NCBI RefSeq assembly: GCF_024713945.1
Contig: NC_134685.1
Location: forward strand, 1,550,001 to 1,614,000
Origin: Dermatophagoides farinae
Taxonomy: Eukaryota > Arthropoda > Arachnida > Sarcoptiformes > Pyroglyphidae
Direction: 5' to 3'
Length of the DNA: 64,000 nt
A program made the position numbers and the translations under genes. Positions 2,840-58,800 of this stretch are shown piece after piece. Every line of letters begins with the position of its first letter. The first letter of the stretch is position 1. Below the pieces are notes generated by a model. That model was not told the DNA's origin. It was given only the letters and a program-made list of their open reading frames with translations, and did no database searches.

Positions 2840-5491
2840 TTATGATAGCTTAAATTCTACTGACGATGACGACGACGATGATGATGATGATGATGAAGTT
2901 GTTGTTGTTGTTGGATGATTCGAATTTGATGATTGTGTCGAGCTCAAGGCTCCATCTATCGTTGATGATAATGTTTGTTGTCGATGATGATGATGATGAT
3001 GTTGATGATGACCAATTCCATTACTTGATATTGAAATTAATGCATTCAAACTTTGTACAATTTCATCTCGATCAATTTGTATATTATCGATTAAATTATT
3101 TTTACCATTATTATTATCATCATTATGGTGATGATGATCGGTTTTACTTTGATCAGCCATCAATGTGGTGGTGGAAACATTATCGGTTGTATTCGATAAT
3201 GTAGTAGCCGAATTATTAAAATCACCAAACAATGCTTGAGCATAAAGACTTTGTTGATATAATTGCATTTGTTGTTGTATCTGTGCCTGTGATAATAATT
3301 GTTCATAGAATGTATTGGATAAATCTATACGTTCATTCATCGAATTTGTTGTCGTTGTATTCATTGATGGATGCGTATTTTTCGGTGGTCTTCCTCGCTG
3401 TCGATGATGTTGTTGTTGTTGTTGATGATGCGGATGATTATGAATTGAATTATGTGGTGTAGATGTCATTATTGGTGGTGGTTGCGGTGGCGGTGTTGTT
3501 ACACCAATCGGTTGTTCATTTTTTGGTGAACGATAATTATTACAATTATTAATATCATGTGATGATGATGATGATTGACCATTATTATTATTATTATTAC
3601 GTAATACTTCAGTATATTTATTAAATAATCGTAAATCAATATTTTCATCAATTACATGGCCCATTAATCGTAATCCTTCATCAATAACATCGTTAAGTTG
3701 TTTACCAAAATCCATCGAATCATTACTATTCGCATTGATCATCATTGATGCTGATGATGGTGTTGTTGTTGTTTGCAAACCATTTGTTTTCTTTCTATTG
3801 GCTATTTTTTCGTTATTCGAAGCGGCAACATCTGTACTATCATCATTAATGGTGTTGTTGTTGTTGTTGTTGCTGTTTGTGGCCAAATTATCATTTGATA
3901 ATGATGGTGAATCATCATGGCCACGTGATTCATGTAACAATGATGATGGCATTGATTCATTTGAATATAATGAAAATTGTGAATCTGTATCATCAGTTTC
4001 AGTTTTCGTTTCAATCATTTCTGTCATTGATTGTTTTGAATTATTTCGATTACATCTGTTTTGACAAAATATACATTCAAATTTAAAAAAATTCCAATCA
4101 TTCATTATCATTATCATTTTACTTACTTTTGTCCATCTTGACTTGTATCCTGTTGTTGTTGTTGTTTTGTTTCATTTTGTTTTTGTTGCTGCTGCTGCTG
4201 TTGTTCTAATTCACTTTTTTCATTTACCAATTGCATTTGATGATCATTTATCATTTCCAATTCATTTTGTAATTCATTTACTTGTTGAAAATTTTGTCTA
4301 TCATTTGCTTCTTTAATTTGGCTTTGTATTTTTTCCTGTTGATTGCCCAATGATTTTAATTGATCAACAATTCCTTCCAAACGATTCTATAGAATATTTT
4401 TTTTTGGTTCGTCAGTAAAGAAGAAAGAATTTGATAAAAAACAGACTTACATGTCGACGTTTACGATCTTCTTCATATTCTTTGGACATATTTTTTGATT
4501 CTTGTTGCTGCTGATTCTGCTGTTGTTGTTGTCCTTGTGCTGGACTAGATCTACTACTATTACTACTACCGCCATTATTACCATTATTATCAAGACGAAT
4601 TCGTTTAATGCTACCGATAGTATTTCCTGTGCTTGATGGATCTTCACCAATACGACAACTTTGTGATCTGAACAAATAGAAATTTGAAATCGATCCAAAA
4701 TCAATAATAATAATAATAATAAATGATTAAATTAAATACCTGGAATGTCCTTTTGAATATTGATAACCACTATCACGTACAACCTGTCTAGCCAATGGAA
4801 ATAATTCATCACGACGATAAAGTAGTTGCGGTATTTTACTACAAATCTGTGCAGCAGCTTCATTCACCGATACTTCATGTAATGTTAATGGTTTTTCCGG
4901 TTTACGTTTACAATCAAAACGGCCATAAATAGCTGCATAACGTCGTATTTCATCTATACGACGTGGATCATCATCTGACATTGACATTATGTTCTATCAA
5001 GAAACAAAAACAAAAAAAAAAAACAAAAAAAAATTTCAACCCAAAGGAAACCGTTACAAATAATCAAACCAAACCATGAAAAAAAACCAGAAATTTTTTT
5101 TTTTTTTTTTGAACACCAAAAAAAATCCTATAGTACAAACTATGTATAGAAAAAAAAACTATAATGACAGCAACCAATCCAAAAAAAAAATCCAAATTTT
5201 TTTTCAACTTGCAAGCAAACGGTTTTTTTCTGGCTCTGTGTGTGTGTGTGTGAGGGGGGTGTGGAGAATGCGCGAATTTCGTTCATTGTACTCCATCTAT
5301 ATACATGGTTGCAATGATGATGGCAGTGTGCACAACGAAAATAGAGAAAAAAATGGATCGATCCATTTTCCAGTCATCATTCATGCTTTGGGGTTGGTTG
5401 AATGAAAAAAAAAAATTTTTTTTTTCACAAAGATTCACATTGTTACAATGTGTGTGTGTTTTTTATGAAATTTTTTATGTTAATCATCATG

Positions 5492-12459: not shown

Positions 12460-14525
12460 TTATGTGAATCCATCATCCTCTTCATCAGCCATCTCTTTTG
12501 CATATTCAAGATCTTGTTGTTCACGTTCACGGCGATCCTAATTTTGTGGAAAAATCAAAAAATTGAAATCAATGAAAATCAATCAAATATAATTGGATAT
12601 ATGCAAAACAGATGAAAACATGCAAGGAAAATGAGAGATAAAAAGTTTTTGTTTTGTTTTTTAATTTTGTCACATTGAAAATTTGCAAGAAATACATGTC
12701 CAATAAAAGGATCCAAAATTTTTTTTTTAAAAAAAGGAACGTCCACGTTTGTCTTGTACATAGACTGGGAAATTTTTTTGTTTGTTTGTTTTGTTGTATG
12801 AATCTAATCGAAATCTTTTTGTTTTAGTATTTTTGGTGGTGGTGGTGGTCTTTCACCCTAATTAAAAATGGAATTCAATGTAAAATGTGGATATAGATTA
12901 ATTAATCATGCAGAGAATTATTATTTGAACATAAAAATAAAATCACAAAGGATTCAAATGGAAAACAAATTCAAATCAATATATCGTTATACAGGTTAGA
13001 GAATAAGTTTAGTCAAACATACCTCAGCACTTTCTAGATCTTTATTATATGATCGTGGTGGAAAACGCATCGCTTTCACTGATTGATTATGAATATCCAA
13101 ACAGAACGATATACGACTATTGAATGCATTCAATGGTTCCGATGTACAATAGATATCGGTAGTTTCTTTTGATTGCATAAATTCACGTTCATGATCAATT
13201 GTTGCTTCAATAACACCATCACGTATTGCTTTCGAAACAATATATTCAGCATCTTCTACATTGTCAAGCATTAATTTTTCAGCCACATTTTTCAGATAAA
13301 TACGTGAATATGATTGATTTATCATACGAATAGCCGTTTTGATGACATTATGTCGTAAACGTATGATCAACGTATAAGTATGATCAGTTTGAAATTTTGT
13401 ACCAAATTTATCCAAAACTTCATTGAATCTTTTTAGATTTCCTGTACGAACAGCTTGTGTTAGTTGAAAATATGGTGATAATGGACGATGAAGTGTAGGA
13501 TCACGAAAAATTGCCCGTTCCGGTATATCACCTAACAATAGATCAACAGTGATGGCTAATTTATGAACAATCTGTTTGAATCCAATAGCCGATTGTTGTG
13601 GTGCTTTACGTATTGCTTGCAATAGATTTTTTCGAGCTTCCGAATATTCCAATTGAATAGCTTTAATACGTCCTAAATAGTAAAAAAATCGAGCCCATTC
13701 ATTATTGGATGCACTTTCAGGAAATGTAGATTTCGATACCAATTTTGATGCCTGATCATAGAGATTATAATGTAAATAGATTCGCAATAATGAATTCAAT
13801 AGGACAGCTTGGCCTTCATAATCATTACGTAAGGTAGCTGTTTGTAAACGGCTATGAAAAAATGATTTCGTTTCATTTAGCTGTCCATTCAATTCATAAC
13901 AACGTGTATGATAATAATAGGCTTTTGCAGCCAACACATCCAATGTTCGACGATTGTGTTTACAAATTTTTGCCATCAATGAATCCGAACAAGTGATAGC
14001 CTGAAATTTATGGAAAATGGAAATATTTTAGTCAAGGTTTTTTTCGAATATATAAGAATAAAAACATACACTTTTATAATTATGAAGATCAAGAAGATAG
14101 AGTACTACAAGCAAATGAAAATAGACATCTTGTTCAGGTGATAATGATGATACAGAAAATTTTGGTTTCGATTTCACCGTACCAGTTCCTGTATCCATCG
14201 GTTCTTCAATATAAGCCAATAATGTTTGTCGCTGTTCGGGAACACTTTGATAGAATATCGATATGACACGTCGTAGAATGGCGGCATTGATATTCTTACG
14301 TGTTGCATTCAATGAACGAAGTACACGAAGTATGAATCGTTGTTCTTTGGCCGATACACCTTTTTCAATCTGTTTTGCATGTTCACGTAGTTCTTCAAGA
14401 ACAAAATTTTCTCGTTCCATTTTTTTGGCCGCTTCATCAATAGCTGATGAATCGGTGTTGGTTGATGTTTCACCAGGTGATTTCATGTCAACATCTTCAA
14501 CGATATCTTTTTTATTTTCAACCAT
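12460..14525 (-). CDS. PSMD3: 26S proteasome regulatory subunit 3 (PSMD3/Rpn3)
   Basis: A PCI-domain subunit of the 19S lid, needed for lid assembly. Three exons fit: 14070-14525, 13023-14000 and 12460-12537 (phase 0 at both joins; donors GTATGT), giving 503 residues against 534 in human. Exon 2 matches human closely over its length: SSIE-type helical repeats, then [38 protein letters not shown], the PCI winged helix with [16 protein letters not shown], and [19 protein letters not shown]. The last exon gives [20 protein letters not shown], the acidic tail typical of the family. The N-terminal 60 residues are acidic and variable. The start is the only in-frame ATG that gives a full N terminus. 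TATATATA lies about 60 bp upstream, too close to the ATG to be sure that it is a TATA box. Confidence 0.95.
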
Positions 14526-24533: not shown

Positions 24534-27500
24534 TCATTTAACAACATTACGTTCCAAATAAATTTTCGTTCGATTCAATTCATTACGAATTTTCACCAAT
24601 CTTGTTTCGGTTGAATCAAACAATGATGAAAATAATAACAAATCGTTGTTATAGCCAGATATTAGATCCAATGCTTTGGAAGCGAAAAATTGTCTTTGAT
24701 CGAAAAAAATTGAATTAAAAAAAAAATTAGCCACAAAAAACAACAACATACAACACACATACCTATCAATAGAATTCATATGGCAATTATCCAATTGATT
24801 AATCAAATAGATTAAAATGTCCAATAAATTGATTGGATCCAATGTGATACCGCCAGTAGATTTATAATTGATTCGTGATTTATAAATCTTGTGATAAATT
24901 TCAAACAAATTAATTAATGGAATTTTTAATGTCAACAATGTTTCCACTAGCCAATATGGTTCATATGTTTGATTTTGATTAGCTATTGATGATGGTGATG
25001 ATGATTCCAGTATGGTGATTATCAATTCTATAGAGAAAAAAAAAGAATTTAAAATAAAATTTCAAAATTCAATTATCAGCTGCTACCTAGTGGAAAAAAT
25101 TTCTCTGTATTCAGATAAAGAGCACCCAATTCTTTGATTTTATTACGCAACAATGTTTGCCGTGTTTGTGAATCAGCCAAACGAACTGAACATAATTCCA
25201 TATCCAGAATATTACGCCAAATATTTTCAATTAAACTAATATCATCATGACCGGCACAATATAATATTTTCAATTGACATTCATAAAGTTGAAATGGTTC
25301 AGCAAAATCCTGATATAATGATGTTACATTCAATAAACGTTGATTAAGCATCTGTATAGCTTCTTCATATCTTGATGGTTTTATTTTTTCCAATGTATTC
25401 AACAATTGCATCTGTATACGTGCTACTTCGATTTTTTCTTCCAACATATGTAGAAATTCACCAGCCGAACCATATGAACTATTCGTAATTAGACGTGCAT
25501 CTAAACTTTTCATACAAACAATAGCACGGCTTAAATATTCAATCCGTTTATATAATGGTATTTCAGTAGAATTTTGTTCCGCTAATTTTGCCAATATTTG
25601 TGCTGCAGCATTAAAATGGCCATTACGTTCATAATAAAGCCAAAGAAAATCCATTAATGCAATTGAATCATTAATTTCCGATGTTTTCTCCTTTAAATAT
25701 GCTTCTAGATATGGTGATTTAATTTCCAATAATTTATCCATCTGATTATGTTCATAAAGCCAATTATAAAGTGTATAATGAAATAATTCATCATTCGATT
25801 GTGTTGCCATACGTAGAATGGTCAATGCAGATTGTTTAGCTTCATCAGGATTAGGATAATCCACCATTGATAATTTTGTTGCCGATGATGATGATGATGA
25901 TGATGACGATGATGATGATCGTGGACTAAGCAATGATTTACTTTGTTGTACAAGACGACCATATACATCTAATAATAGCCGATAACATTCGATACGAGAA
26001 TCATAGACATTTTTCACTTGTAAATCGGCATCCATTTTATCTCGATTTTTATAATAATGTAATGCTAAACTTTGTGGATCACGTTGTTGTCCAGTATTAA
26101 GACAAATATCAACAATAGCTTCATACCAATTAATCGATTGAAATAGATCACAAATGGCTTGTAGATTGATTCTTGGACCAATTTTTTTACATAATTTCAA
26201 TGCATTATCTAATAAAATTTTACGATCATTTTCATTGGTATATGATTTAGATTTCAATACCATTTCATGTACTTTGGCATGTAAAGCATTTTCATTTTTA
26301 TAAATAGATGGACATACATCCTGTAGACGTCGATTAATAATATCAGTTGTTGAATGATCTTCAATAAATCGTTGTACCAATGCACTGGCCAATAATGTTG
26401 TCATTTCATTACCATAAACTGTTAATTCTTTAAAATTCATATTTGATAATTGATTCTGTTTATCTGTGGTCAAATTGGCAACAATCACATGGAATTGATG
26501 TATGCATAATAATTTCCATAGATTCAATACTTCAAGACAATGTTCAATCAATTTGAATAGACCAAACAATAGATTACGTTCAAACATTTGTTGTTGATCA
26601 TTGATAGCGAATGATGTTGATGATGATGAATTCAAATATTTATCCGATTCTATTTCTGTGAATTTCATATTTTTCTTCAGAAAACTATATAAAGATGTTA
26701 AACGAAGTAGATATACTTTAATTTCATCTACCGATATATTACTGGTAAGTAATTCTTTTGGTCCTTCTGGTGTTTGTTTTTGATTTATTGAAATTGCTTT
26801 CAAATTCCATATAGGTCGAATGATACGTGAAAAATAAATGAAAAGACCACGACATTTTCCCGAACAATTTTGCAATGGAAAATGAGCTTGTTGTGATTGT
26901 TGTTGTTGTTGCTGATGCTGTTGTGGTGGTGGTGATAGTGATGATAATGGTGTTTGTTGTTGATTCATATCAAAACGATTCATTAGATTCGTCTTATACG
27001 GACTATCATATGGACGTACAGGACTTGGTAATTGATCTTGATGTCCAACACCTGGACTTATTGTCATCAATGGACTGGCCAAAGGAGTCGATATGAATGG
27101 TGTTGATGTTTGTATATTCGATTGATGTATTGGATGTTGTGTTGAATTTAACATTTCAGATCCATAATGAAAAAATGCCGATGTTGCCCATTCAATTAAT
27201 TTTTCTTCACCAGTTGGTTGTGAATCACAGGCCAATATCAAAGCAAATACACAGGCATTCGATTGAAATGAACCACTATGTAGATGAAAAAATGATTTAA
27301 CCGCATCATTATCGTAGCCTTGATTTTCCATCAACAATTGTTTCAACTGGTCAACTAAACGTGGTTTATAGCCAACAATTACGCCCTGTGCGGTTAGGAA
27401 AACAAATTTTTGTGGCATTTCAATATGCTGTGTAACGATGGCCGGTGTTTCTAATGCAAATGTTTTATTCTTAAAGAATAAACTTTGATATGGTTTATAT

Positions 27501-29215
27501 TCAACAATCTGTGGTTCTTCAGCCATTGACCAGATTCTTGTTTTCAATGGTATAATCGTATATAATTCACTTAATTCATTTCGAAATGCAAATGAATCCG
27601 AACTTAATGTCCATAATGTATCTTTGTTATCAGTTTGATATGAAATGAAAATAAAATTTCCTTTCTTATAATGAGTTTGTTGTACGGCTGTTGGCCGATG
27701 TTGACCACATGAGGCTGCGAAACCAGGTGGTAACCGAATATGTAATAATGTTAAACCGAATGGTCGTTGTTCCGGTGTATTCAATGATGTCGTAGTGAAA
27801 TAAAGTCGAACACCAGTTTTTGTAACGGCAACTAAATTTATATAAATTGATTCACATTCTTCCATTGAATTAATCGATACGATTGATTTGAAATTCATTT
27901 CATCGATAGCAGATGCTGCAGCGATCGCTTCACGTGTTATGGATGTAAGTGATTTTTGTACAACACGTTGAGCCGATTTACCATCAATGCCAAGATCGAA
28001 TACTTCGATATCACCTTCTTCATTCAATGTATATAGTATATTACGTGTTTTATCAATTTGAATCTGTATAATGGGTACTTGTTTATAGTTTTTCAATATT
28101 TTAGGCACCAAAAACGATAAATAACTAGCTGAATGATTAATTTTATGGCAACTTTTTCCACCAAACCAACCATTATCAGCTTGATAATGAATTTCATAAA
28201 GTGATCCATCATTACCACCGAAAAATATTCGACCATCATCAGTAGATTGAATAACTTTCACTTCAACATTATCCGTTGGTAATGTAAATAATGGATCAGG
28301 CATAACCAACAAATCTCCCTGATCACCATCAGGATTATTCACATCACCACTGAAAGTGATGCCCAACAAAATGATTTCGGTAAATGTAACCAATACGAGA
28401 ATGTATTTGATGTGTGATTTAAGAACACCTTGTTTGGGTTTCACCAATTCTACTTTGATTATCATACGTGAAAGAGCATCATAATAGGCAACATCGGTAC
28501 CGGTATCATACTTCCATAGATAAACATTTGTATCGATAGCCAGCCAAGCACGTCCAATATTGGCAAAGATACCCATTTCACATCGTTGAACCATTTCTTT
28601 TTTAATGAATGAAAAAAATATATGATTAAACAATAAGAAACTAAGGTTAACACAACAATAAAAAAAAACTTACGACCAAATTGTTCAATCAAAAGTTTAG
28701 GCAATGGAATTGTTTTAAGACCAACAAATTGTGAAAGTGTTTTCAATGAATTACCATATTCTTCAAGATTTGGATAATCAAAATCTCGTCGTCCAGATAT
28801 CGATACGAATCCTATTGGAATTTTATAATTAAAAATTCATTATTATAAACAACCTGAAGAAATCATCAAATAACATTGTTCATAAGTTACCGGGTGAAAC
28901 TTTTAATAATTCATTTAATTGTGGAAAAAAAGAATCAGCTTGTAAGAATGAATCCACATAATTGGTGATAATATCTAAATTATGACCAGCCGATATTGTT
29001 TCGGCTAACGGTGATGACGATGTCATCATCATCATGTTCATCATTTTCATCGAATCATCGGCTATTGGCGGTGGCTGTGATTGTGATTGTGGATGATGAT
29101 GATGATGGGGTGATTGTATTGTAGCATTACCGCCTGTAATAATACTTGCACCAATGCCGGTATTATTATCAACATCATAATCTAAAGCAACAGTCGGCAT
29201 TGAATCCAATAGCAT
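24534..29215 (-). CDS. NUP155: Nuclear pore complex protein Nup155
   Basis: A scaffold nucleoporin of the inner ring. Five exons fit: 28891-29215, 28674-28811, 25087-28596, 24763-25027 and 24534-24693, total 1465 residues (human 1391), phases consistent. Exon 1 has a histidine- and methionine-rich insert, then ends with the start of the conserved region. Exons 2 to 3 join as LLIEQFG-QMVQRCEMGIF, followed by IGRAWLAIDTNVYLWKYD, PDPLFTLPTDN and INHSASYLSFLVP, the N-terminal seven-bladed beta-propeller. The rest is the helical solenoid (AAAQILAKLAEQNSTEIPLY, LARLITNSSYG-type stretches), with serine- and glutamine-rich insertions in disordered loops. The gene is divergent from DIMT1. Part of exon 3 (HIKYILVLVTFTEIILLGI) is hydrophobic, but it is a propeller strand region rather than a membrane segment. 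Confidence 0.95.
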
Positions 29216-29589: not shown

Positions 29590-30593
<1,004 letters not shown>

Positions 30594-30653: not shown

Positions 30654-32236
30654 TTAATCAAGATTTTTAAGAAAATTTTCGATCGCTTTAATCAATGATC
30701 TTGGATATGTTGTTGTTGTTGTTGTTGTTGCCCTTCTTCTTGGTGTTGTTGTTGCACGTTTCAAAATCATCATTGAATGTGGACGTTGTTGTTGTTGTTG
30801 TTGTTGTTTGATCGAATCATATATTCTCGACATTGGTCGAAGATTTTTTTTCCATATTAATATTGATGGTGATTGATCCTGTTGTTGTTGTTTCCATGCT
30901 TTACGAATGTTCTTGTTGTTGTTGTTGTTGTTGTTGTTCCTATTCTCTTCATTATCTATTTTAGTTGTATTTGTACGAATTGTCCCCGTTTCATCATGAT
31001 GATAATTATAATTGTCCTCTATTAATTTTTTTCTTTGTACACGATGATGTTGATGATGATGATAATTTCGGCCATCGATCTTAAGATTTTTAATATTCTC
31101 AATAATTGTCGATGTTTGTTCTTTTGGATCATTGATCATCATCGTTGAATAACAACGATGGGAATTATCATTGTCATCATCATTATCATTTTTGTTATTT
31201 ATAATAAATTTTTTCTTTTCATCTGCTGCTGCTGCTGCTGCGGCTGCGGCTGCCATCAATATCATTGATGGTGTTTTTAGTGATTCAATCTTTTTACCAC
31301 TACTACCTGTGGTTTTCATTAGTTTTTTTTGTTTCATTGATGTTGACCAATCCTTATTATCCTTATTATTATTATTATTATTATTCAAACATTTATTGGT
31401 CGTTTGTGGCGGTGATGGTGATTTTGGCGATTGTTCCATAGTTGTTGTTGTTGTTGGTAAAGGTTTCTGATATCTAAATCTACGACTAGAATAGATAATT
31501 AAATTGGATAAATTCAAATTATTTTCTACAATCATACACTTACTCTCGGGTACGAGGAAGATTTATTGTTCGTTTTCGTCTTGTTTTTACAATTGCATCA
31601 GTTTTTTCCATCGATTTTATCGCTGATAATAATGGTTCATCAAAATCTTTGGCTGGAAATAGTGTTGTTGTTGTTTTTGATTTGATTTTAGTCAAAACTT
31701 TTGTTTTTGATCGTTTTTTAAATAAGATATCTGGTGGTCGTTTTGATTCCGGATTCGCAACGACAGGAGAAAGAGGAGTAGGTGGTACTGGTGGTGTTGG
31801 TACTGGTGGCGGTGGTGATGGTGATGGTGTAGCAGTGAAAATTTTTTCAATATCCAATAAAACCTGCTGTTTAAGCCATAAATCCGATGGATACAATACT
31901 GAGGGTATATGTTTGACAATTTTATTATTATTATGATGATGATGATAATGATGATTCTTGAAATTATCTAAAATCAAGGATTTTAACATGAAAAACACAT
32001 GTGAAGCATTTAAAACAAAACAAAAAAAAAAATTAAAAGGAAAATTCCCAAGAAAAGAAAATAAAATAAACAAACTTACTTGATAAATGATGATCATTTT
32101 TAAGGTTATTGAACGAATTAGATGAAGGTGGCAATTGATGCTGCTGCTGATGCTGTTGTTGTTGTTGACCATAGTTTTGTTCATCATGATGATGATCAAT
32201 ATCACTATAATCATCATTATCATCATGACGTTCCAT
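30654..32236 (-). CDS. Unrecognised low-complexity protein A (orphan pair member)
   Basis: I do not recognise this gene. Three exons fit: 32080-32236, 31544-31967 and 30654-31485, 470 residues, phases consistent. The protein is hydrophilic, rich in His, Gln, Asn and Ser, with no signal peptide or membrane segment. Two short segments look constrained: KHIPSVLYPSDLWLKQQ with LLDIEKIF (about residues 70-96), and the last 17 residues, YPRSLIKAIENFLKNLD, an amphipathic helix. Basic patches (KKRSKTKVLTKIKSK, KTRRKRTINLPR) suggest a nuclear or nucleic-acid-binding role, which is a guess. The gene at 41310-42287 shares both segments and a phase-2 splice site before the last exon. The third exon is longer here because of poly-Asn, poly-Gln and poly-Ala insertions. 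Confidence 0.7.
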
Positions 32237-33532
32237 AACCAACAACAAATACAAAAACACAAGTGATTATCTGTGTGCGTTCGCGAATTGAATTCCAACA
32301 ATGAAACCATATGAAATCACAGAGCATTTTATTTCCAAAAAAAAAAAAAAACAAGATCTGGTAATTGATAATCGAATTTTTTTTTCATAAAGAATAAGAA
32401 TTAATTAATTAGCGAATGAAATAATTATAATCAATTTAATGTTACAAGGTTACTGTTTTTTTTTATTGCATGAACGAGTTAAATTCTATTTATAGCAATC
32501 AATTTATCAATGATCAATGATGATGAAAATCGAATCAAGAAATCAAATACAATTCTTGCTGTTGTTGTTGTTGTTGTTGTACATTTTTTTTTTTTGCAAA
32601 TCGAACGATTAAATTTTTGTGTCAATCGATCATATTATCGATAATCAGTGTATGTGTGTGTGTTTTTTTTTGTCAGTTTTTTCCGATGAAATATTTTGAA
32701 CAAAAAAAAAAATTTCCAATAAAAAATTAGAATTTGATAAGATTTTTCTAATTATAGAATTATCATCAATATGTGCGTGTCTGAATTATGACATGTGAAG
32801 AATTATTTTTATTTATAATTTTATTTTTATGATGATGATCGATTTATGTTAGATTTGAAATTGACCTTGTCATTATGAATTCCGTCATCATTCAATCATC
32901 ACACATTATGATTTCTCCCAAAATCAAAATCAAAAAAAAAAAAATTCTCATTGCGAATCTGATTATCATCATCAAGAATAATAATCAGAGATGTCAAAAA
33001 GTCGGTGAAAAAGTGATGGGGGATGCAATCGATTGTGACGACCACGATGATGATGATTACGCCAAATGATTGATCAGATTTATTTGGATGATGATGAAAA
33101 AATAAAAAAAAATAAAAAAATGGAATCAAATATTCCATTGAATGATAAAATGCAATATATAATTGATATATGTAGTAAAAATAGTAAAAAAAAACATCAA
33201 ACGCCTCGAAGGCCACAAATTATTCTCATTTGCACATTTTCAATCGATTGAGATGAAGGCAAAACAGAAAAGAAAAAGACGAAGAAGAGTATGTATGTTT
33301 TTTTAACGAATCCTTATATTTTGAAAAAGGAGAATAAAAAGCTCGATCAAATGTTTGCATGAAAAACATTTTTTTCAAATTTTCCTAATTTGTTTTTTCA
33401 CCTGTTTTGTCGAAATTTTTAATTTAAAAAAATACTATCGATTATCGACCGTCAACCATCGATTCGATGATTCGAATTTCTGTATTTTTCTCTCTCTCTC
33501 TAGTTCGATTGTTTTCATTGATTGAATTAAAA
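32237..33532. other. Intergenic, between orphan gene A and the secreted protein gene
   Basis: No recognised gene. Two small plus-strand frames (32875-33069 and 33066-33251) contain charged, non-repetitive stretches such as KMQYIIDICSKN, but have no homology or splice support that I can name. The left part is the presumed promoter of orphan gene A. Confidence 0.5.
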
Positions 33533-34457
33533 ATGATCAACAAATCATTATTTTGGATAATAAATTTATTATTATTATCATTGCTAATCACATTGATTGC
33601 CATGAATTCGGTGTATGCGGAATCACGTTATCTATTGAAAAATCGAACAAATTGTACGGAAAATAATCTGAAACAGATTGAATTGAAAGTTGCAAAAATG
33701 ATGCCAATTGGAACATTTGCAAGAAAATTGCCAGAAAATTTCAATCAAGCTAAAGGATTTTGCAAGTAAGTTGTTTGTATGTGGGTCAAGTAATTTTTAT
33801 TTCATTTTCTAAAAACAAAAAAAAAATTTCAGAGAATCAATTCGTTTGGTACGTGAAACGGAACAATTTTTTCTTCATTGTTATAAAAAAGAAATGGTCG
33901 ATCTGGCCAAAATTATCATCTATACATTGAAACAGAATATTAAACTTTATTGTCGTAAAAATACAAAACGTTTGGCAAAATTATTAACAGTGGCACCGTG
34001 TGTTAATAAACACATTAATCGTGCTGATCATTGTATTGGAAATTTTATGAATCAAACAAAACAATTGGTTGGTTTCAAAAATGATAAAGATAAAATTAAA
34101 TATGCTTGCTGGTAAGTTGATATTAGAATGAATTTGATTTCAATTCCAATATTAATTGATTTATTATCCATTTTTTTTCTTAGTAATTATGTTGAAGGAA
34201 TGAAATGTGCACGTGTTGTACTCGACGATGTTGTCTGTTCGGAAGAGAATAATGATGAATTAATTATGGATTCTATACGCGGTTTAACCGGTAATTTTGT
34301 CAATTTTGTTTGTGGTGATTTTGATGAAACAACCACATTGTGTGATCAACTTGGGCCACAGCCACCATTGGATAAACCGATCACTAAACAATATTATACG
34401 CCAATTTTTTTGCTTGTCGATCTTATGGAATCGATGAAAAGTTTTCAAAGTCTTTGA
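33533..34457 (+). CDS. Secreted cysteine-rich protein, family uncertain
   Basis: Three exons fit: 33533-33765, 33833-34111 and 34184-34457 (phases 2 and 2), giving 261 residues. The N terminus is a clear signal peptide: a hydrophobic run of leucines and isoleucines ending near NSVYAES. The mature protein has twelve cysteines spread over predicted helices (CTENN, GFCKES, LHCYKK, LYCRKN, APCVNK, DHCIGN, YACCNY, MKCARV, VCSEE, FVCGDF, TLCDQL) and two potential N-glycosylation sites (NRTNCT, NQTK). The pattern recalls arthropod and nematode secreted all-helical cysteine families (27-kDa haemolymph glycoprotein or DUF19 type), but I cannot assign it firmly. The C-terminal 35 residues have no cysteine. 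Conserved splice phase and the signal peptide argue for a real gene. Confidence 0.82.
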
Positions 34458-35008
34458 TCCAAAATTAATAATAATAAAATTCATTCATTCATTTGTTGTT
34501 TATTTTATAGAAAAAATGTTTGCAAATAAAAATTTTTTCCACCAAAAAAAAAAAAAAGATAAATTTCCGCTATGTCATATTTGTATGACCGCGGCCAGAA
34601 AAAAAAATTAGGGTAAAAAAAAATTTGACCGTTGCCGAAATTAAAAAAAAAAATACGCAATCTGGTATCGGGTCACATTCACACATGAATACATGAATGA
34701 AAGGCGGAGCCATTCATTGCTCATCATCATTTGATGGCTTGTTGCGCCAGCTGCGAACCTTTTTTTTTTTGGCAGCTGTTGCTGCTGCTGCTGCTGCTGC
34801 TTGCTGTCACCCAAATATCAAACCGAAATGTCCAACAATCCCGACACATTTACACACACACACACACATATGTTGACAATTTTATCCCGACGTACAAGAT
34901 AAAATGTGAATCATTGTTTGCCTGTCTTTTTTGTGTGTGTGGACAATTTTTTTTTATTGAAATCTAAAGGTCTAATCTAAAATTATTCTGTGATAAATAC
35001 TAAAAATA
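34458..35008. other. Intergenic between the secreted protein gene and DEPDC1
   Basis: Short gap holding AATAAA signals just after the secreted gene stop (about 34472 and 34524), a CTG run near 34775 and a CA run near 34855. A leucine-rich open frame here is a repeat translation. The right end is the DEPDC1 5' flank. Confidence 0.6.
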
Positions 35009-37617
35009 ATGACAACGACGACGACGACGACAATGACAACCGAATCCAATCATAAATTTCGAGATCTCAACAATTCCAGAATGTCTTCATCAGCATCATC
35101 ATCATCATTGTTGAATGATCAATTCAAAGCAACCAAAATGGTGAGTCTAATCAAAAGTTGTTTTTTTTTTTTGGTTTTGTTGAAACAAAAAAAAAAAAAA
35201 AAAAAAATCCCCACTACAGTGGAACGATGTATTACATGCATTTTATTTGGGCATCGAATTGAAAAAACATCGTAGACAATTGAAATCATATGCAGATTGT
35301 TTTACAGCATCCGATGCTATTACGTGGCTTAAACAATATCTTAAAAATCAACAACGTTTTAATGGAAATAAAATTACAAGGTAATTGATTGATTTTTTTT
35401 TTGTTTTATTTTGATGATGATTTTTTTTTCGTCAATCAATTAGATTTCAAGCATTGAATTTATTACGTAAATACTATGAATCGAACATTATTGAACATGT
35501 CATCATGAATGGTGAAATGAAAGAAATCAAAGATAATAATGATCTATATCGATTTACGGCGAATGAAAATTTTTCATTTTTAATACGAAAAAATAATGAT
35601 GATGATCCAGTGGATGAAAATAGTAAAGAATCATCATCATCATCAACAAAATTAAAATTTGAATTAGATGTTCGTGAAAAAATTGATATTTATAAACAAA
35701 TTATTTGGTCTGAATTGAATCGATTGTGGCCATCAATTGTTGATGACAATCATGATATCAAATTGCAAACAATAGATGGTCAAATTGTATTGAATAATGT
35801 TACTCGTGTCAATACAAATGGTATTGTACAGTTGACAGATAAAAATGAAGATTTACCACCATGGATAATGTCGGCAATGAAATGTTTAGCAAATTGTAAG
35901 TCAATATAATCTATTTTTGTTTTTATGATTTAAAATTAAATTATCAAATAATAATTATGATTAGGGCCAAAAGCAACAGGCAGTGCTAATTGTCTGCCAA
36001 AATATCCTGGATTCGAATCCGATGTATTCAAATTGATTCGTGAATATTTTACAAATATGGAACAACCGATTATTCCATCATCATATTATTCAGTTTTCAT
36101 TCATGTTCATCGCTTATATTTATCGAAATCTCATTTGAAAATCAATAATGGTCATACTAAACATATTAATGATGATCTAGGTTTACCAGCTAATTGTGTA
36201 TATGAAACTATATTTTCAAGTAAAGAACCTGTTACTAAAATTGTTCCTATCGATGAATTATCAGCTGTTTTTCCCAGTTTTCTGCATTATTTTCGTCAAC
36301 AACAACAACAACAACAACATTCGAATCCAAATTCGTTTGTATCATCACCATTATCCAGTTCATCAATCAATCAATTTACTAGTAATACATTTAGAGCTCT
36401 GTCGACAATACCGAGAAAAAGTCGAAATAATAAAAATTGTTTCACAACGACGACAACAACAACACCAAACACAACTGATGATCGACAAAAATTTGAAAGT
36501 CCACCTGAAAATGGTGAATATATGTTCAATAAAACGTTTGATGATGATTGTTCATCCAAACGACAATTTTATTCATTACAAAGACGTAAAAGTGATAAAA
36601 TAAGTTCTCAGCTATTGAATGAAATGGAAACGGAAATGGAATCTATTGATCATCAAAATCATTATGAACTTTTACAATTGTTACTAATTTTATTGCCAAA
36701 TGTAAATCGACGATATCTACAGCTATTGATACGGCTATTTGCACGTATTCTGTCCAATAAGGAAATTTGTTTACTTACCAATGATTCATTAACATTGAAA
36801 GAACATGTATGTAAAACATGGAATTTTTTTTTAAAATTATATTCAATTTAAATTTCAATTTCACAAATAACAAAATTTCCAACAGATTGTAACCATATTC
36901 ACTCGTTGTATATTGCGGCCAGAAAAGGAACGAGATTTTGATGAATTACAATCGAAAGAATTTGTCACTTTTCTAATTGATGAATGTTGGGATATATTTC
37001 GAATCCCCCGAAAATTTCATCAAGAAATTGATAAATTAATGGTAAGTTTGCATGTGTGTGTGTGTTTGTGATTCATAAAAATAAAAAAATCTAATCTAAT
37101 CATGTTTAACATTAGAAAAACAAATTGAATGAAAAACAAAATGATGATCAATCATCAAATGATTATTGTCATAAAATATCGAATGAAGAATATGAATTAC
37201 AACGTGATGCATTATCCGATATGGCATTAAGTGATCTATTACAAAGTATAATGCGTGATGATACACTAAGTGAACGTGATAAACTTAAATGGATTAAACA
37301 GGTAATAAAAAAAATTATCCAAATTTCATCAAATTTAATTGATTTTTTTTTATGAACAGTTCAAAATGTATCATCCAGATGTATATGATGTTTATTTTAC
37401 CAATTGTAATGTATTATCGGCTGCCGAAAAACAACAACAACAATGTGATGGTAAACAAAAAACTACAACAGGAAAAAGAAATCGAATCCACCGATCAACT
37501 ATATCATCGCCACCATCATCATCTCATCATCATCATCGTATTCATTCAATCGATACATTGAAACATGATACAAATCGTTTATTTAAACGTTTTTTTTCAC
37601 TAAAGATTGTAAAATAA
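35009..37617 (+). CDS. DEPDC1: DEP and RhoGAP-like domain protein (DEPDC1 family)
   Basis: Seven exons fit with consistent phases: 35009-35140, 35220-35380, 35444-35895, 35965-36806, 36886-37041, 37116-37301 and 37360-37617; 728 residues. The DEP domain runs over exons 2-3 (ATKMWNDVLHAFYLGIELKK, CFTASDAITWL, LNLLRKYYESNIIEHV, LYRFTANE). The RhoGAP-like domain spans exons 3-4 (LPPWIMSAMKCLANWPK, KYPGFESDVFKLIREYF), and its second half (LLILLPNVNRRYLQLLIRLF, IVTIFTRCIL) runs into exon 5 after a low-complexity insert. The C terminus has the family's Lys-rich motif (KLKWIKQFKMYHPDVYDVYF). Vertebrate DEPDC1A/B act in mitosis and Rho signalling, and their RhoGAP fold lacks the catalytic arginine; I see no clear arginine finger here either. 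The start gives a threonine-rich N terminus; a later ATG at about 35081 is possible. Confidence 0.92.
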
Positions 37618-39286
37618 ATAAAAATAAGATATTATATTCAAAACACAACAAAAACACCCTGTAAAGAATCGAATCTAACAATTTGACAAGTGAAGCAAAT
37701 ATCAATTGGGAATTCACATTTGAGAATCCACTAGAGTTACTGAATTGCCCAAGAAGATGTCTATTTTCATGGATGACAAAATAGCAGTAGTTGATTTTTT
37801 CCTATATAGACCCAATAATGATGCCTGTGTGATTTATATTTATATTTATTTTCATTCGAATCGTCGAATATTTTATTTCACTCCCTATCACCACTCTTTC
37901 TTATTTTTCTTCTATTTTTTTTTAATTTTATTTCTTTTCTTTTCTTTTTTTTGTCTGTTTGTTTGATTATCATTTTCATAGTCAATTCAACTCGATTCAT
38001 CATTGTCATCACAAGTAAGCAAACAAACACACACTTACGCAAGACCCTATAGAATATCAAAATCACGAATATTTTTTTTTTTTTTTTTGTTGAAAAGTTT
38101 TTACTGCCGTGTATAGAGAGAGAGAGAAAGAAAGAATTGATTTCATATATTAGATGGATGGATTCTGCGCCCGAAAAGAAAATAACCCTAAAACCCATCA
38201 TCATCATACTATACAATGGGTACCATATATGTGATGGCACCATTTTTTTTCTGGGTTAATAATTCTGTATATACGATTATTTATAAATGAATGGATAAAT
38301 TTTAACATTTTGATTACCACATCTGTATCATGAATGACCCAACCAACCAAACAACTATATATAGACAAATATGCGAACAACAACGAAAATTCTTGGGCAG
38401 TCAAAGTGTTAAACCAAAAAAAAAGAGAATTAATATTGAAACAATTATGATTTTGCCTCTTTGGCTCCCTGTTTACAAACACTTTTATTCTTTGTTTTGT
38501 GTGTATTTTGTTCATACACAACTACGAATATTCTTGTTCAACGACTACAACGCCGATTCTATTGAAAGTTGTCGTCGTTGTTGTTGTTGTTATAAAAGCT
38601 CAAATGAAAATAGAGCAAATAGATTCACACACATACCATACAACACGCATAGTGAGTAGATCAGTGAACAGAATCGACAGAATGAACGTTCTTTATTTCT
38701 TTCTTGGGTTTTATATTGTGAATTTTGGTGTGTGTGTGTATGTCGTCATTATCATTACCATTTTAATATTTTTGTTTGTCGTATTCTGTGATCATCATCA
38801 TTCTTGTCATTCCGTTACATTTTTTTTTCAAAGTGATCGAGAAAAGTCATTGAGACAATTGTGTGTGTGTGATAATAACTGGGGTATAAACACACACACA
38901 CACACACACACACTATATACACACAAACACACACACACACATATAAAGTAATTATAAACGGATTCTTTACATTCATCTAAATTAAATTTGTCTGTTTTTT
39001 TTTTGTTTTGTTTTGACATTGACAAATAGTGAAAAAAAATTTTTTTTTGCTTCAATCCGAAATCCATTTTATTAGCAAAAAAAAAAAGAAATCCCCACTT
39101 TATCTCAATTATTTCTTATCAGCATCCTTTTTTTTTGATGCCATCCAGTCTTGACATGACTTGATCCAGGAACAAACAACAAAATAATCAACAACAACGT
39201 GAGCGCAACAACAACAACAAAAAAAAAATTTCAAAACATCAAGTGAGATTCAATTCAATTTGATCAGATAATTTTGTTGCCAAAAG
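37618..39286. other. Intergenic between DEPDC1 and the Ly6 gene
   Basis: Mostly repeats: TTC/TTTTC tracts near 37900, CA microsatellites near 38890-38940, and poly-T. Only the short minus-strand candidate exon at 39109-39159 stands out. Confidence 0.5.
39068..39159 (-). CDS. Candidate orphan terminal exon with poly(A) signal
   Basis: On the minus strand a T-rich tract and an AG at 39161-39160 are followed by 17 codons (39159-39109) reading SCQDWMASKKKDADKK and a stop, with AATAAA 36 bases further on (39073-39068). It looks like the last exon of a small lysine-tailed protein, but I found no upstream exon for it between here and 41.3 kb. It could be chance or a small gene whose other exons are hidden. 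Shown as a candidate only. Confidence 0.25.
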
Positions 39287-40476
39287 ATGGCTGAAATGGA
39301 AAAAATTTGGCCATTCATCAATTCATCATCATCATCATCATCATTATCGTCATTTATTGTCGATAAAAAATTATGCACATTAATAAATCTATGGTGGTGG
39401 TGGTGGCGTTGGTGTTGGCTACTGATAAAACGTAAATTATCATCAACATTAACAACTATCTATGGCCATCATAATAATCGCCTTCAATCATTTAATATCA
39501 CAGCCAATGCCACAATATATCATCATCTACCGAATGCCAATGGTATATCGTTTTTTTTTTACATATATGAACAATCTTTGTGATCAATTAATTTTTGTTC
39601 GTTTTTTTTCACAGTTTTATTTCCAGTTTTATTCATATTGATAATCAGCATATTTATACCGATGGCCAATTGTGAAGAAGAATGTTTACGTATGTTTTTG
39701 TTTTGTTTTCGAATCTATTTTATTCTAATCGGAACATTTATTCATATATGACGTTTATATTATGTAAATTAGGATCCAAAGTTTGGTGTTATGAATGTGA
39801 ATCAATCAACGATCCATATTGTAATGATCCATTCAATGTTAGTTTCGATATGAGCTTGATGAAAATGTGCGAAGGTTGTTGTGTAAAGATTGTATTGGAA
39901 AAAAATACACGTAAGTCTTTATCGTCAATTCCATTAATAATAATCTTTATTCTTTATATTATCATGAATATAGCTCAAAAAAATATATGGCGAACATGTA
40001 CATCAAGATTACAGATAAATCTATTTATGGTTGATCATGTTTGTATGGAAGAATCCGGTGGCCAAGGACATATGTGTTTCTGTGAAAGTGATGGCTGTAA
40101 TGATTCAAGATCCATTCATCATCATAATTATTATGGCCATTCAACAAATAGTTGGATAACAATCATATCAACAATATCAATTATATTCATAATAGCCGTG
40201 ATTAATGAAACGATTACATCATTTCTTATTACTTCATCATCATCATCATCATCATTGTTATTATTATTATTATTAGCCATAGATCATTGGCTGCCATCAT
40301 TATCATCACCATCATCATCATTATCTATTAAATTTCCTTTGAAATTCCTTCATATTCTATTGCTACTGTTGATGATTCCATTAATACTACTACTACTAAT
40401 ACTACTTTTTCTCAATCGAAACATAATTGATTTGAATAATTTTCGATATCATTTTATTGTTGATGAGATATTATAA
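39287..40476 (+). CDS. Ly6/Quiver-like (three-finger) membrane protein
   Basis: Four exons fit: 39287-39542, 39615-39689, 39773-39910 and 39974-40476, all joins in phase 1, 323 residues. The core (exons 3-4) is a Quiver/UPAR-Ly6 domain: KVWCYECESINDPYCNDPF, MCEGCCVKIV, RTCTSRL and the terminal GHMCFCESDGCNDS, with the ten-cysteine pattern of the family. Members are usually GPI-anchored and modulate ion channels or receptors. A hydrophobic stretch in exon 2 (PVLFILIISIFIPMANC) looks like the signal peptide. It lies about 95 residues into the protein, after a Ser-rich segment and a run of tryptophans, so exon 1 as modelled is doubtful. The C terminus holds two or more long hydrophobic segments, far more than a GPI signal needs; the protein may be membrane-spanning, or the stop may be read from a longer exon than is used. 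Confidence 0.78.
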
Positions 40477-41309
40477 TATTTTTCTTTCTTTTTTTCTTTG
40501 TTCTCCTTCATCAAATTGGATATTTTAAAATGTGATAAACACTCTCCAATCAATCAATCAATCAATCAACTATATTGTTGTTGTTGTTGTTGTTGTTTTT
40601 CCTATTTTTTTCATCTCCAATTTTAATACCATTGTTACAGCCATCATTATTAGGATATATATGTAACAAAATAGGAAATGCCAAACGAAATAAAAAAAAA
40701 ATATAAGTCATTCTTTCGTAACATCTATACATTGTATGTATGTATTTCATTTGTATATATACAATTATTTTCTCATCATCATCTATATCTTGCCATAAAT
40801 GAGTTCGATAATAAAATTAGCATATTTATATGATGAAAATAATCTGATTATAAATATTCGGGAAATTTGCCAGAAAAAAAAGATGAATCAAACACACACA
40901 CATACACACACAAACGAAAATCCCGGTAAATATGCTCAAAACATTCGAATTCGAACATTTCAAAAAAAAAAAAAAAAAAAACAAACATCCATCATCATCA
41001 TCAAACACACAAACAATTTTAATTCTGTTGTTGTTATGATTTTTGTTTCTAAATTCTCGTATTTTATTTGTAAAATTGTATAATTATTCAACAAAAATCA
41101 ATATATAAATCAAATAATATATAGACAACACATGTGAATGAAAAAAAAGGTATTTGTTGACAATTTTTTTTTTGCCCATTTATTCTACTAATTATACTAT
41201 CTTCTCATTCTAAATTTTTATGATTCAGAAAAAAAAAACCACAGAAAAAAATTCTACTAGAAATTCATTCATTCTTCTTTCTCTTTCCACCACCACCAGC
41301 TTGGATTGA
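40477..41309. other. Intergenic, no gene seen
   Basis: Repeat-rich gap between two convergent genes, with a GTT run near 40575, CA repeats near 40893 and an 18-base A run near 40962. It should hold both 3' untranslated regions. Confidence 0.6.
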
Positions 41310-42287
41310 TTATGGTAAATTATTTAAAAAATTTTTAATTGCTTTTATCAATGTTTTCGGTATACCACCACCACCACCACCTACACCTTTATAATGACGT
41401 AATTCAGTCACCGTTGTTGTTGTATCTTTTTGTTGAATAGTACCGCCACCGGTAGCTGCCGGCATTGTTGCTGTAGGTGATTTTAATGATTCGAAACGTA
41501 ATTTTTGACTATTTATTATCACCGGTGATTGTTGTTGTTGTTGTTGTTGCAATGATGGTAATGGTAACATTTGCAATGAACTTGGATCATTTGTATTCCG
41601 TTGATGCCGTAATGATGTAACTGTTTTTTCTTTACCAATTCGTTTTTTGCTTTGACTGGCCAAAATCGATTTATAAACCAAAAAAAAAAAAAAAAAATTT
41701 AATCAATTAATCGAAACACATTATAATGAATAATTTACATACTTATTTTCACGATGATGATGATGATGATGACGATGACTATGATGTTGATGTGGTTTTC
41801 TTCGTGTACATTGCTTCAATCGATTTAATGATGAACATTGTGTTATAGGCATTACCGGTGTTTCAAAAATTGGTTGCTGTTGCTGTTGTTCATCATTGTT
41901 CATCATCAATGTTTTCGAACATTTATCTAAAACAATTGTTTCCTGCTGCTGCTGCTGTTGTGGTTGTTCTTGTTTTGTAATAGAATTTTCACGTTGTTGT
42001 TGTTGTTGTCTTACTTTTGATTTAAAAATTGATTCCAAATCAATTTGTTTGACAATCAAATCATTTGTTGTCAATTGTGATGGTATATATTTACTAATAT
42101 GATAATCAGTCATTGTATCATTGGATTTTATTTCATCAATAGGTGAATGTGGTGATTGTGGACTATTGTGGTCATTGTCATCATCATCATTGTTATTATT
42201 AAAATCATTATTATTCTTTACATCATTAATTTTCACCAATCGATTTTCATTGTTGTTGTTATTATTCGTGTTATTGAATGTATCCAT
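41310..42287 (-). CDS. Unrecognised low-complexity protein B (orphan pair member)
   Basis: Two exons fit, 41743-42287 and 41310-41655 (phase 2), 296 residues. The N-terminal 60 residues are Asn/Asp-rich. A constrained segment follows at residues 67-90 (KYIPSQLTTNDLIVKQ, then IDLESIFKS). Poly-Gln and poly-His stretches lead to the splice site, and the last 17 residues read IPKTLIKAIKNFLNNLP. These two segments match the orphan gene at 30654-32236, and TRRK precedes the last splice in both. No signal peptide, membrane segment or enzyme motif is visible. The function is unknown; the two genes look like ancient paralogs about 9 kb apart. The product is shorter than A, chiefly because the last exon lacks most insertions. 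Confidence 0.68.
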
Positions 42288-50599: not shown

Positions 50600-51972
<1,373 letters not shown>

Positions 51973-54859: not shown

Positions 54860-55871
54860 TTTGTTGTTGTTGTAGAATAAATCCAACAACAGTCAACAAT
54901 AACGACAACCGAACAGTACGACAGCCAATTTCAAAATGATCCATTCATTCATTCCATGATTCATAAGACCATCGAATGATGAAAGATTTTATGATCCAAA
55001 AATAAACATAATGATGATGAACGAATGAATGAATGAAGTTTTTTTTTGACAAAATATAAATGAAAAAAAAAATAAAATGTAGAGAAAAAAAAATTTGGGA
55101 AACAAGATTAATACAATCAATAATTCATGTAAATGGGCCTCTCATACTCTGGTACTAGGGGCTAGTTGGTTGGTTGGTTGGTTGTTGGTTGTGGTGTTTG
55201 TTTTCCAGTGAAAAAAAAACTATATAAACCTGAATAACTATTTCAACTAACCAATGAACAACAACAAATAAAAAAAGATTATAGTTCATGTTATGGCCCA
55301 AGAGACCAATGATGATGATGATGATGATGACACAAGATTCTAATAAACAAACATACACACACAAGAGACAAGAAAAGGATTACCGTTTTTGTAATCATAT
55401 ATATACACACCGGTACTCATTCTGGGAATCGTTCATTTTTTTCTGTCTTTTTTTTTGGGAGTTCATCATAAATTCTTTCTTTTTTTCATTATTCCCATAA
55501 TCATCATCATCATAACTAATTCATTTTCATAACTTGATCTTGGACGATTGCAAAATGAGAAACGAAAAGAAAAAAAAATGAAACTTTAAACCATACCATA
55601 ACCGGTAATAAGAATATATATGTATAGAATACTGGAAAGAAAAGAAAATTTCTAGTTTTTTTTTTGTGTGTGTGTATGTGATATTGAGATGTGAATGAAT
55701 TATTTATTTATATGTACCGGAAACGATTCTATTGGAAATTTTTTTTCTTATTCTGTTTCTATCGTTTTTTTTTTTTTTTTTTTTTTTTGCTTGGTATAGA
55801 ATTCATTATTGCCAGGGAAAATGATGTACTTTTTTTTCTTAAATTCATGCGAAAATAATCCATGTACATAC
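54860..55871. other. Gap between the two STAC halves
   Basis: AT-rich with TTGG and ATG repeats and a 24-base T tract near 55765. On the minus strand no AG occurs from 55138 down to 54841. No exon was recognised; a small linking exon cannot be excluded in 55140-55860. The start of the SH3-half transcript should lie here. Confidence 0.45.
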
Positions 55872-58800
55872 ATTTATATGGTGAATAATGATTAATCATT
55901 TCATTTGAATCATAACGTGGTGGTGATTGGCCAACAAGACCAACTGTTGGTGGTAATGATGATGATGATGATGATGGTTCAGCAACAGTTTTCATCATAT
56001 CACGACGATGTTGTGAATGATGATGAGGATGATGATGATGATAATGATGAGCGGCGGCAATGGGCGGCAATGGTGGTAATTGTGGTGGTATTGGTGGTGT
56101 AAAATTTGGCCTTTTATCTTTTAATGTTTCAGCCGATTCTGGACTATCTAAACTTAAGCTTTTCATTCGTAATGTTAATTTCTTTTTATGTGGACTATGT
56201 GGTGCCGAATAAGCTTGTTGTTGTGTTTGTGATATTGTTAATAATGTAGGTGTATTATGATGTTGTTGTTGTTGATGAATGATTGGCACGGATGATTTAT
56301 TGATTGATATTGGAACAATACCACCACCACCATTACCATTGTTATTATGATAGGCAAAACCAGGTAATGTTCGATTAGTTATCATTGGTGATTGTTCATT
56401 GGAATTATTCATCGATGAATGACCACTACCATAATGTTGATAACGGATATCCGGCTGTTGTTGTTGTTGTTGTTGTTGTTTCATCATTGAACCATATTGT
56501 TGTTGATGATATTCAATAGTTGATTGATGAAATTCTGAATCCGAATTTCTATGTGTCATTTTTATTGTTGGTGGTGGTGGTTGTGGTTGTTGTTGTTGTT
56601 GTGGTGGTGGACATGAAGATGATGATGTTTCTTGTTGACGATGTTGATGATGTTGTGGTTGACAATGTGTTAAACTTGTTTGGCTACCAACTAAACTATC
56701 ATTACTATCTTGATGTTTACCACCACCACCACCACCACCAGAATTAGATGGACCATTACCATATGTTTGTTTAATCGAAATAGAACCTGAACTACCACTT
56801 CCGGAAGAATCATGATGATAATGATGATGATAATTATTATTATGTTTATGTTTACCACCACCACCACCGCCACTACCACCACCACCACCATTATAATTTG
56901 AATAATGTTCCGTTACATATTGTGCACATTTACGAGCATCAGCAGCAGCACGTAGTGATTGATAAACAGGATCATAATTTTGATATTCTATAATCATAAA
57001 ATCAATAAATTCACGGTAAATACAAAAACAAAAACAAAAAAAAAAAGAAAAAGAAAAAAATGGTAAAATCGATTGAATAATTCCAGGAATAAGAATGAAA
57101 TTAGAGAAAAAAAAACACAAGAAAATGGTGAAAATGAAACACATGACCACAATGGATACAACGACAAAGATTGTATTTAATCTATTCATATATATACAAT
57201 GTTTGTGTATGAATGTATGTGGTGAACAATTAATTGTGGAAAAAAAACAATGAAAAGAATGCAAAAAAAACGAAACCATTATCCAGAATGGAAATAAAAA
57301 GAATCCATACATGTATGTGTATTGTGTTAGCTACACATATTTTTTTTATTTTTTTTTTAATTTGACTAATGAATGGAAATATAATTTTCTCTTGAGTAAA
57401 TTCATTAAACAATTGACCAAACGATAACGGCAAAAGCAGCAGCAGCAGCAACAACAACAACAACAACAATGCGATAAATGAAACAAACAAACTAAACACA
57501 TGATGATGACAATGATATTTGGACAACATTATCGCCATTATCAACAACACAGTAACAATAACAATAACCTGTTAAGAATGCCCAACACACACACACACAC
57601 ACACAAACCAAACAAAAACAAAGAAAACCGAAAACTTTGGAAATAAATAATAACAATGTATAGACAATGTTTTTGTTGATGTCATAATAATAATGATTAT
57701 AATACGCCCAGAATTTGTGGAATTTGTTTGTTTTCTGGGTAGTGCAACAAACAAAAAAAATGAAACCCAAAAACAAAAAAAAATGAGATATTCTTTGTCA
57801 CTATCTGTCTATTTCTATTTGTGTGTGTGTGTATGATATTTTTTTTTGTCAGAATTTCTCTTATCCGGTTATTACTATTATTATTCGGGTTTCGCCTTTA
57901 TGTCATTGTTAGTGTCAGGTTTTTTTTTTTTTTGGTTGCTGCTGCCGTCGTTTGTTGTTGTTGGAATAGATTTACAATATATTAATATGGATACACCTGG
58001 TGCACCTGAATTTTTTTTTTTATTCAGTATTCTTTTTGGCTACCACCGTCATTATATTGTGTGTGTGTGTTACATACATTGTTTATGGTTCATTGAAGCT
58101 CAAGAAAGAAAAAAAAATTCTTTCCCATTCCACATTGGAATAATGATTTTCAAGTGTGTTTGTGTATGTGTGTGTGTGTGATGTGGATTCTGTAACCCGA
58201 ATTCCATACATAGGCAAAAAAAAAATAATTTCTGACCAAACACCAACACACCACTTACTTTCATCATCAATCTGTGGTATGGTTATTTTTGTCTCCAATT
58301 CAGATGCTGATTTCTGTTTTCGTAGTAAACGTGGTTTAGGCTATAAATGATGAAAAGAAAAAAAAAGAAAAAAAGAGAGAGAGTGAGAAAAATGGTTAAC
58401 AACAACAATGAAAATTGAATTAAATTATTAAAAAAGGAAGCAGATAATAAAAATGAAAATTTTTTTTTTGTACAAAAAAAACGCCTAGGCCCATTCAATT
58501 CCAGTTGTCAAATACACACTTTCTTTTCAATTTTAGCTATCCATGAAACTCGATCCATTTCCAGGACCCGGAGATGATCCGGAATGAATTTTGACAGTTT
58601 TTTTTTTGCTCTAATTTCTGACCCCGAAACATTTAAATACTGTATTATGTAATACTGGATAATGTAGTCATATTTATCCCAAATAACCTAGCAATAACCG
58701 GGCAACAACAATAACAACAACAACAAAAACAGAATTTTTCCTTTTCGGTATCGATATTGAAAATGAATTTTTTTTTTATTCAGGACAGAATCCAGAATTG

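Follow-up and report, generated by a model that had tools for sequence, protein, structure and literature searches.

Disordered adaptor proteins that carry short linear motifs are a general kind of protein. Among described sequences, the IN-box of human INCENP offers a close comparison; residues L875, L877, I880 and F881 of its LDLEDIF sequence, together with I872, are reported to bind αC of Aurora kinase (PMC6639382). Here we describe two genes, A and B, that lie ~9 kb apart on the same strand of a 64-kb window (the whole stretch of DNA analysed, positions 1,550,001 to 1,614,000 of Dermatophagoides farinae contig NC_134685.1; Table 1), whose mostly low-complexity products carry two short, similar blocks in the same order, and which appear to be a genuine, diverged pair of paralogues. 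The assembly searched comprises 62.4 Mb in 22 contigs, and local scans covered the surrounding 264 kb.

A preliminary description of this locus, made from the letters of the DNA, had reported two ordered motifs common to A and B, and both are borne out by scores beyond those of shuffled controls, with the order the same in each protein. The internal motif has the consensus I.K.IPS.L...DL..KQ followed by [LI]D[LI]E.IF, with a 3-residue gap before the second part in B, and the C-terminal block reads P[RK][ST]LIKAI.NFL.NL, after which one residue and the stop codon follow in A and B. When the two proteins were compared after masking of low-complexity stretches, the internal motif reached a local score of 54 (at most 49 in 3000 masked shuffles), and the C-terminal block had an end-anchored ungapped score of 54 (at most 35 in 200000 random draws). 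A single BLASTP comparison of A with B gave the two blocks E values of 3e-4 and 6e-4. In addition, a scan of the 264 kb for the C-terminal helix scored A and B at 66.5 and 65.5 (next best 27.5; reversed control 31.0), the corresponding values for the internal motif were 69.5 and 65.0 (next best 25.0; reversed control 25.5), and a DNA pattern of the C-terminal block had 2 mismatch-free places in the genome, which are A and B. The shuffles, the genome pattern and the 264-kb scores therefore indicate that the likeness of A and B marks a genuine pair and is not due to chance, in agreement with the two-member relationship proposed at the outset. The conserved C terminus had been put at 17 residues; a conserved block is indeed present there, but its length is 15 residues, of which 11 are identical. 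Likewise, the view that all else is drifting holds for most of the chains, although a weak third block, [IF]ESLK[ST]P, which lies between both main blocks in the same order, was also paired by BLASTP, at E = 0.08 only.

The C-terminal block is also where structure is predicted. In an AlphaFold2 model of the last exon of B, the sole helix of at least 4 residues spans residues 100-111 of the 114 (KTLIKAIKNFLN), the ten-residue blocks that bear it have confidence values of 96 and 86 (the latter being residues 111-114), and the remaining ten blocks score 49-71, with a pTM (predicted template modelling score) of 0.20. The hydrophobic moment of LIKAI.NFL.NL is 0.77 in A and 0.74 in B, values that 1 and 21 of 20000 shuffles, respectively, attain; the value of A is attained by 6 of the 2471 12-mers in five neighbouring proteins. 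The C-terminal helix claimed in the preliminary description thus has a counterpart in one confident, strongly amphipathic helix, and the further proposal that it serves as a peptide which docks into a partner is a fair inference from an amphipathic helix that is the sole confident element in B's last exon.

The explanation we favour, with moderate confidence, takes A and B as diverged paralogues whose products are disordered adaptors, probably nuclear, that each carry two putative docking elements. Its observed basis is the presence of two ordered blocks that are alike beyond chance, together with the helix predicted in B's last exon. A last intron of phase 2 in each gene, codons changed at 6 of the 11 identical residues of the C-terminal block and the high hydrophobic moment also count in its favour. 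On this explanation, A and B would have arisen by an old local duplication, their long chains, in which Q, N, H, T and P are abundant, are probably disordered (by extension also outside B's last exon), and the basic patches present in both suggest a nuclear protein. Purifying selection would keep two elements, the amphipathic C-terminal helix and an internal linear motif that has [LI]D[LI]ExIF at its end, and these putative docking elements might bridge two partners, or grip one partner at two places, as the linker between them drifts.

Several points weigh against this explanation. Constraint is judged from two sequences, A and B, of one species. Across four blocks (48 codons, with 30 residues identical and the codon changed at 12 of those 30), the non-synonymous divergence (dN) is 0.33 and the synonymous divergence (dS) 0.91, which speaks for constraint, but dN is lowered by construction because the blocks were picked for agreeing residues, and a dN/dS from few codons in blocks chosen for likeness may be taken as a sign of constraint and not as a measurement of it. 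The AlphaFold2 model covers the last exon of B alone, and was made from a single sequence without an alignment. Codon use gives a mixed picture: synonymous codon scores per codon are 0.114 for A and 0.201 for B, both above the intergenic mean of -0.115 (standard deviation 0.161), with B above and A below the intergenic maximum of 0.189, such that coding is favoured in the mean, though not cleanly; the score of A's last exon is 0.034, a weak bias, and in B one antisense frame reaches 0.219, which is higher than the true frame.

These last two values, together with the extreme low complexity of A and B, would suit an alternative in which one or both genes are decaying or mispredicted and their likeness is left from duplication. 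We regard this as very unlikely, since the frames are open, the GT/AG introns are of equal phase in A and B, and the helix block is intact in both even though the codon is changed at 6 of its 11 identical residues. A different alternative accepts the genes and reads the C-terminal helix as a generic amphipathic anchor, which might attach to PKA in the manner of AKAPs, to calmodulin or to a membrane. The very high hydrophobic moment, the net positive charge of the block in B and the terminal position are all consistent with such an anchor, which would, however, be unlikely to retain 10 of 12 residues while the remainder changes; we consider it unlikely. Its AKAP version, a helix that binds PKA RII, is not supported: neither C-terminal helix is among the matches to the strict pattern, where A and B have F at a position of the hydrophobic spacing that we take to require A, V, L or I, and the relaxed pattern, which A and B do match, carries no weight because 2471 places in 264 kb match it. 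The same helix also resembles F-box helix 1 (LPxxLLxxIFxFL) in its spacing, [IY]PxxLIxxIxxFL, and could in principle be such a helix kept alone at the C terminus, where it would recruit Skp1. With a profile of D. farinae F-boxes, A and B score 8.2 and 10.8, above all 2466 13-mers from five neighbouring proteins (best 8.1), yet below all 12 F-boxes in the set (lowest 11.9; the same 12 built the profile, which favours them). This set derives from 19 F-box places reported in the genome, none of them at A or B, from which 13 were fetched and 12 used, one (L056) being dropped as its match begins inside helix 1. Directly behind the central I or V, all 12 F-boxes have F, L or Y, but A and B have E or K; the stop one residue past the conserved block leaves no room for helices 2 and 3 in either gene; and the Pfam F-box family PF00646 matched neither A nor B nor their fragments (E up to 10). 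Identity with F-box helix 1 was rejected on the charged residue, the scores under every F-box, the missing helices and the missing Pfam match, and we find it hardly credible. A SIN3-interaction helix, a further idea, was set aside.

The internal motif provides a lead of another kind, in which it would be an INCENP IN-box-like core lying along αC of Aurora kinase while the C-terminal helix anchors elsewhere, making A and B Aurora-docking proteins or an INCENP remnant, a reading we think quite unlikely. In its favour, [LI]D[LI]ExIF agrees with human LDLEDIF at L875, L877, I880 and F881, reported contacts of Aurora αC (PMC6639382), and the human IN-box sequence was confirmed in PDB chains. When the two-sequence motif was aligned to the human IN-box with hhalign, IDLESIFKS was placed on LDLEDIFKK over 11 columns with a probability of 43. 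The score of B against the IN-box was reached by 24 of 5000 shuffles, or 7 of 5000 with cheaper gaps, but A was undistinguished (402 of 5000, or 199 of 5000 with cheaper gaps), and all these figures are uncorrected for choice because the IN-box comparison was selected after the motif had been seen. A and B hold the 2 occurrences of [LIV]D[LIV]Ex[ILV]F in the six-frame translation of 264 kb, a pattern that was likewise derived from the motif. Pfam PF03941 (ARK-binding region), which as a control matches the human IN-box at E 7.7e-10, matched neither protein and none of the motif fragments with E values up to 10, nor did INCENP_N (N-terminal helix) match A or B at that threshold. TSSxxW and IPxWA are absent from the translations of A and B, and the internal motif sits mid-protein, away from the C terminus; as to the first of these, the TSS motif is reported to be missing also from putative INCENPs of yeast and Arabidopsis (PMC6639382). 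The mite's true INCENP is unaccounted for, which would favour the lead: the genome, searched with the IN-box family, had nothing over the Pfam cut-off (one place below it is low-complexity sequence), and neither profile searches with INCENP_N and Borealin_N nor a human IN-box query had a match, all without a positive control. However, an intron-split domain would escape the domain searches, and the silence of the INCENP and Borealin searches shows little because of the missing control, which counts against the INCENP reading. The genome has BIR domains at 3 places, the pattern RTSSAxW occurs at 8 places compared with 12 in the control, and the 301 bases read at the one RTSSADW place (C11:594874) contain no IN-box. 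The INCENP comparison is thus kept as a lead on the mode of the motif and not on family membership, because it is post hoc, A does not rise above chance, and both TSSxxW and a Pfam match are absent. Its most specific form, a mite-specific Aurora-docking pair that would have retained, of the IN-box, the αC-binding core alone while acquiring a C-terminal targeting helix, with the role of INCENP split or replaced in a genome that yielded no standard IN-box, strikes us as very improbable indeed.

That A and B fall in no known family, as the preliminary description had it, agrees with the searches of Pfam and PDB, but 'undescribed' is a provisional term whose scope is those two resources. Both proteins and seven fragments went unmatched in a Pfam hmmscan with E values up to 10. 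A PDB sequence search with B gave 99 weak matches, none credible (best E 0.025 among the 60 listed); many of those listed begin or finish near the histidine-rich residues 169-178, so they look like tags and are read as noise. For gene A, PDB was searched with a 137-residue fragment, which had one match that is not credible (E 0.63), and with its C terminus as part of the helix profile; this profile had two matches (1.3 and 1.6) and the internal motif profile another two (0.52 and 0.54), none of which is credible.

Whole-genome protein queries at E up to 10 with the internal motif and the helix of A each matched itself alone. These two queries cannot exclude other members because the known paralogue, B, was also missed, so two members is a lower bound, and the DNA pattern and the 264-kb scan are better evidence on this point. 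When up to 2 mismatches were allowed, the C-terminal DNA pattern had 85 forward and 88 reverse matches, which is background (80 and 84 in the control). About 100 of these places were listed and gave 20 loci, of which 13 were read in translation (A, B and 11 others, leaving L007, L009, L010, L014, L016, L018 and L019); none of the 11 continues to x-N-L and a stop. In viral contigs, the internal motif pattern alone had 61 matches, with no relatives among them.

The gene models and coordinates first given for A and B are correct, as is the claim that a phase-2 splice opens the last exon of each (Table 1). The TRRK noted before the last junction does exist, in A 9 codons and in B 17 codons ahead of the split codon, but is given little weight because both stretches are basic. 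Translated without splicing, the first intron of A yields a hydrophobic stretch.

Table 1. Positions of genes A and B and of their shared blocks within the window.
Feature	Position	Strand	Details
Gene A	30654..32236	minus	3 exons, 470 residues; spliced frame open, GT/AG introns
Gene A exons	32236-32080, 31967-31544, 31485-30654	minus	
Gene A first intron	31968..32079	minus	phase 1; no counterpart in gene B model
Gene A internal motif IVKHIPSVLYPSDLWLKQQVLLDIEKIF	31837..31920	minus	residues 69-96
Gene A last intron	31486..31543	minus	phase 2
Gene A weak candidate for a third block, IESLKTPS	31266..31289	minus	BLASTP E 0.08
Gene A C-terminal block PRSLIKAIENFLKNLD	30657..30704	minus	residues 455-470; stop 30654-30656
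Gene B	41310..42287	minus	2 exons, 296 residues; open frame, GT/AG intron
Gene B exons	42287-41743, 41655-41310	minus	
Gene B internal motif ISKYIPSQLTTNDLIVKQIDLESIF	42024..42098	minus	residues 64-88
Gene B intron	41656..41742	minus	phase 2
Gene B weak candidate for a third block, FESLKSPT	41472..41495	minus	BLASTP E 0.08
Gene B C-terminal block PKTLIKAIKNFLNNLP	41313..41360	minus	residues 281-296; stop 41310-41312

Among 20 neighbouring frames scanned, those matched by Pfam belong to unrelated families on both strands, and it is because of these unrelated flanks that the duplication would have been a local one without neighbours, or one whose flanks have since been rearranged. Between A and B, on the opposite strand, lie a RhoGAP-domain frame (36033-36851) and a frame with a Quiver (u-PAR/Ly-6-like) domain (39682-40476). 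Pfam also matches housekeeping proteins in the window, namely PSMD3 (12996-13979), a nucleoporin of the Nup133/Nup155 kind (25076-28633, 1185 residues in one frame), an rRNA adenine dimethylase (29757-30593) and the proteasome ATPase PRS7 (50600-51829). Two further long low-complexity frames on the minus strand, 55759-57312 (517 residues) and 2840-4117 (425 residues), have no Pfam match at E 0.01. Elsewhere in the genome, a 108-residue piece of a group 2 allergen gene aligns over its full length with Der f 2 chains, with one difference from 1ahk and two from 1xwv, and scores higher with these than with Der p 2, which places the genome at D. farinae or a very close relative. A second group 2 allergen-like gene (L044, C1:5872227-5872556) has clearly diverged from both Der f 2 and Der p 2.

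If A and B are disordered adaptors as proposed, they illustrate how little besides two short docking blocks may persist as a disordered protein pair diverges, and the two blocks in fixed order provide an exact query with which to look for this family in other mites. The Aurora lead, if true, would lead one to ask how the chromosomal passenger complex is organised in dust mites. Compared with the INCENP IN-box, the reported αC-contact positions are, in a hand alignment, hydrophobic at 5 of 5 in B (V, I, L, I, F) and 4 of 5 in A (Q comes first), whereas in A and B a long tail that bears the C-terminal helix comes after the motif, and IPxWA, TSSxxW and a Pfam match are lacking. With F-box helix 1 they have the spacing in common, but differ at the charged position, in the absence of helices 2 and 3 and in their lower score. 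To disordered adaptors with short linear motifs, A and B are alike in their low-complexity chain, their isolated conserved blocks and their terminal amphipathic helix.

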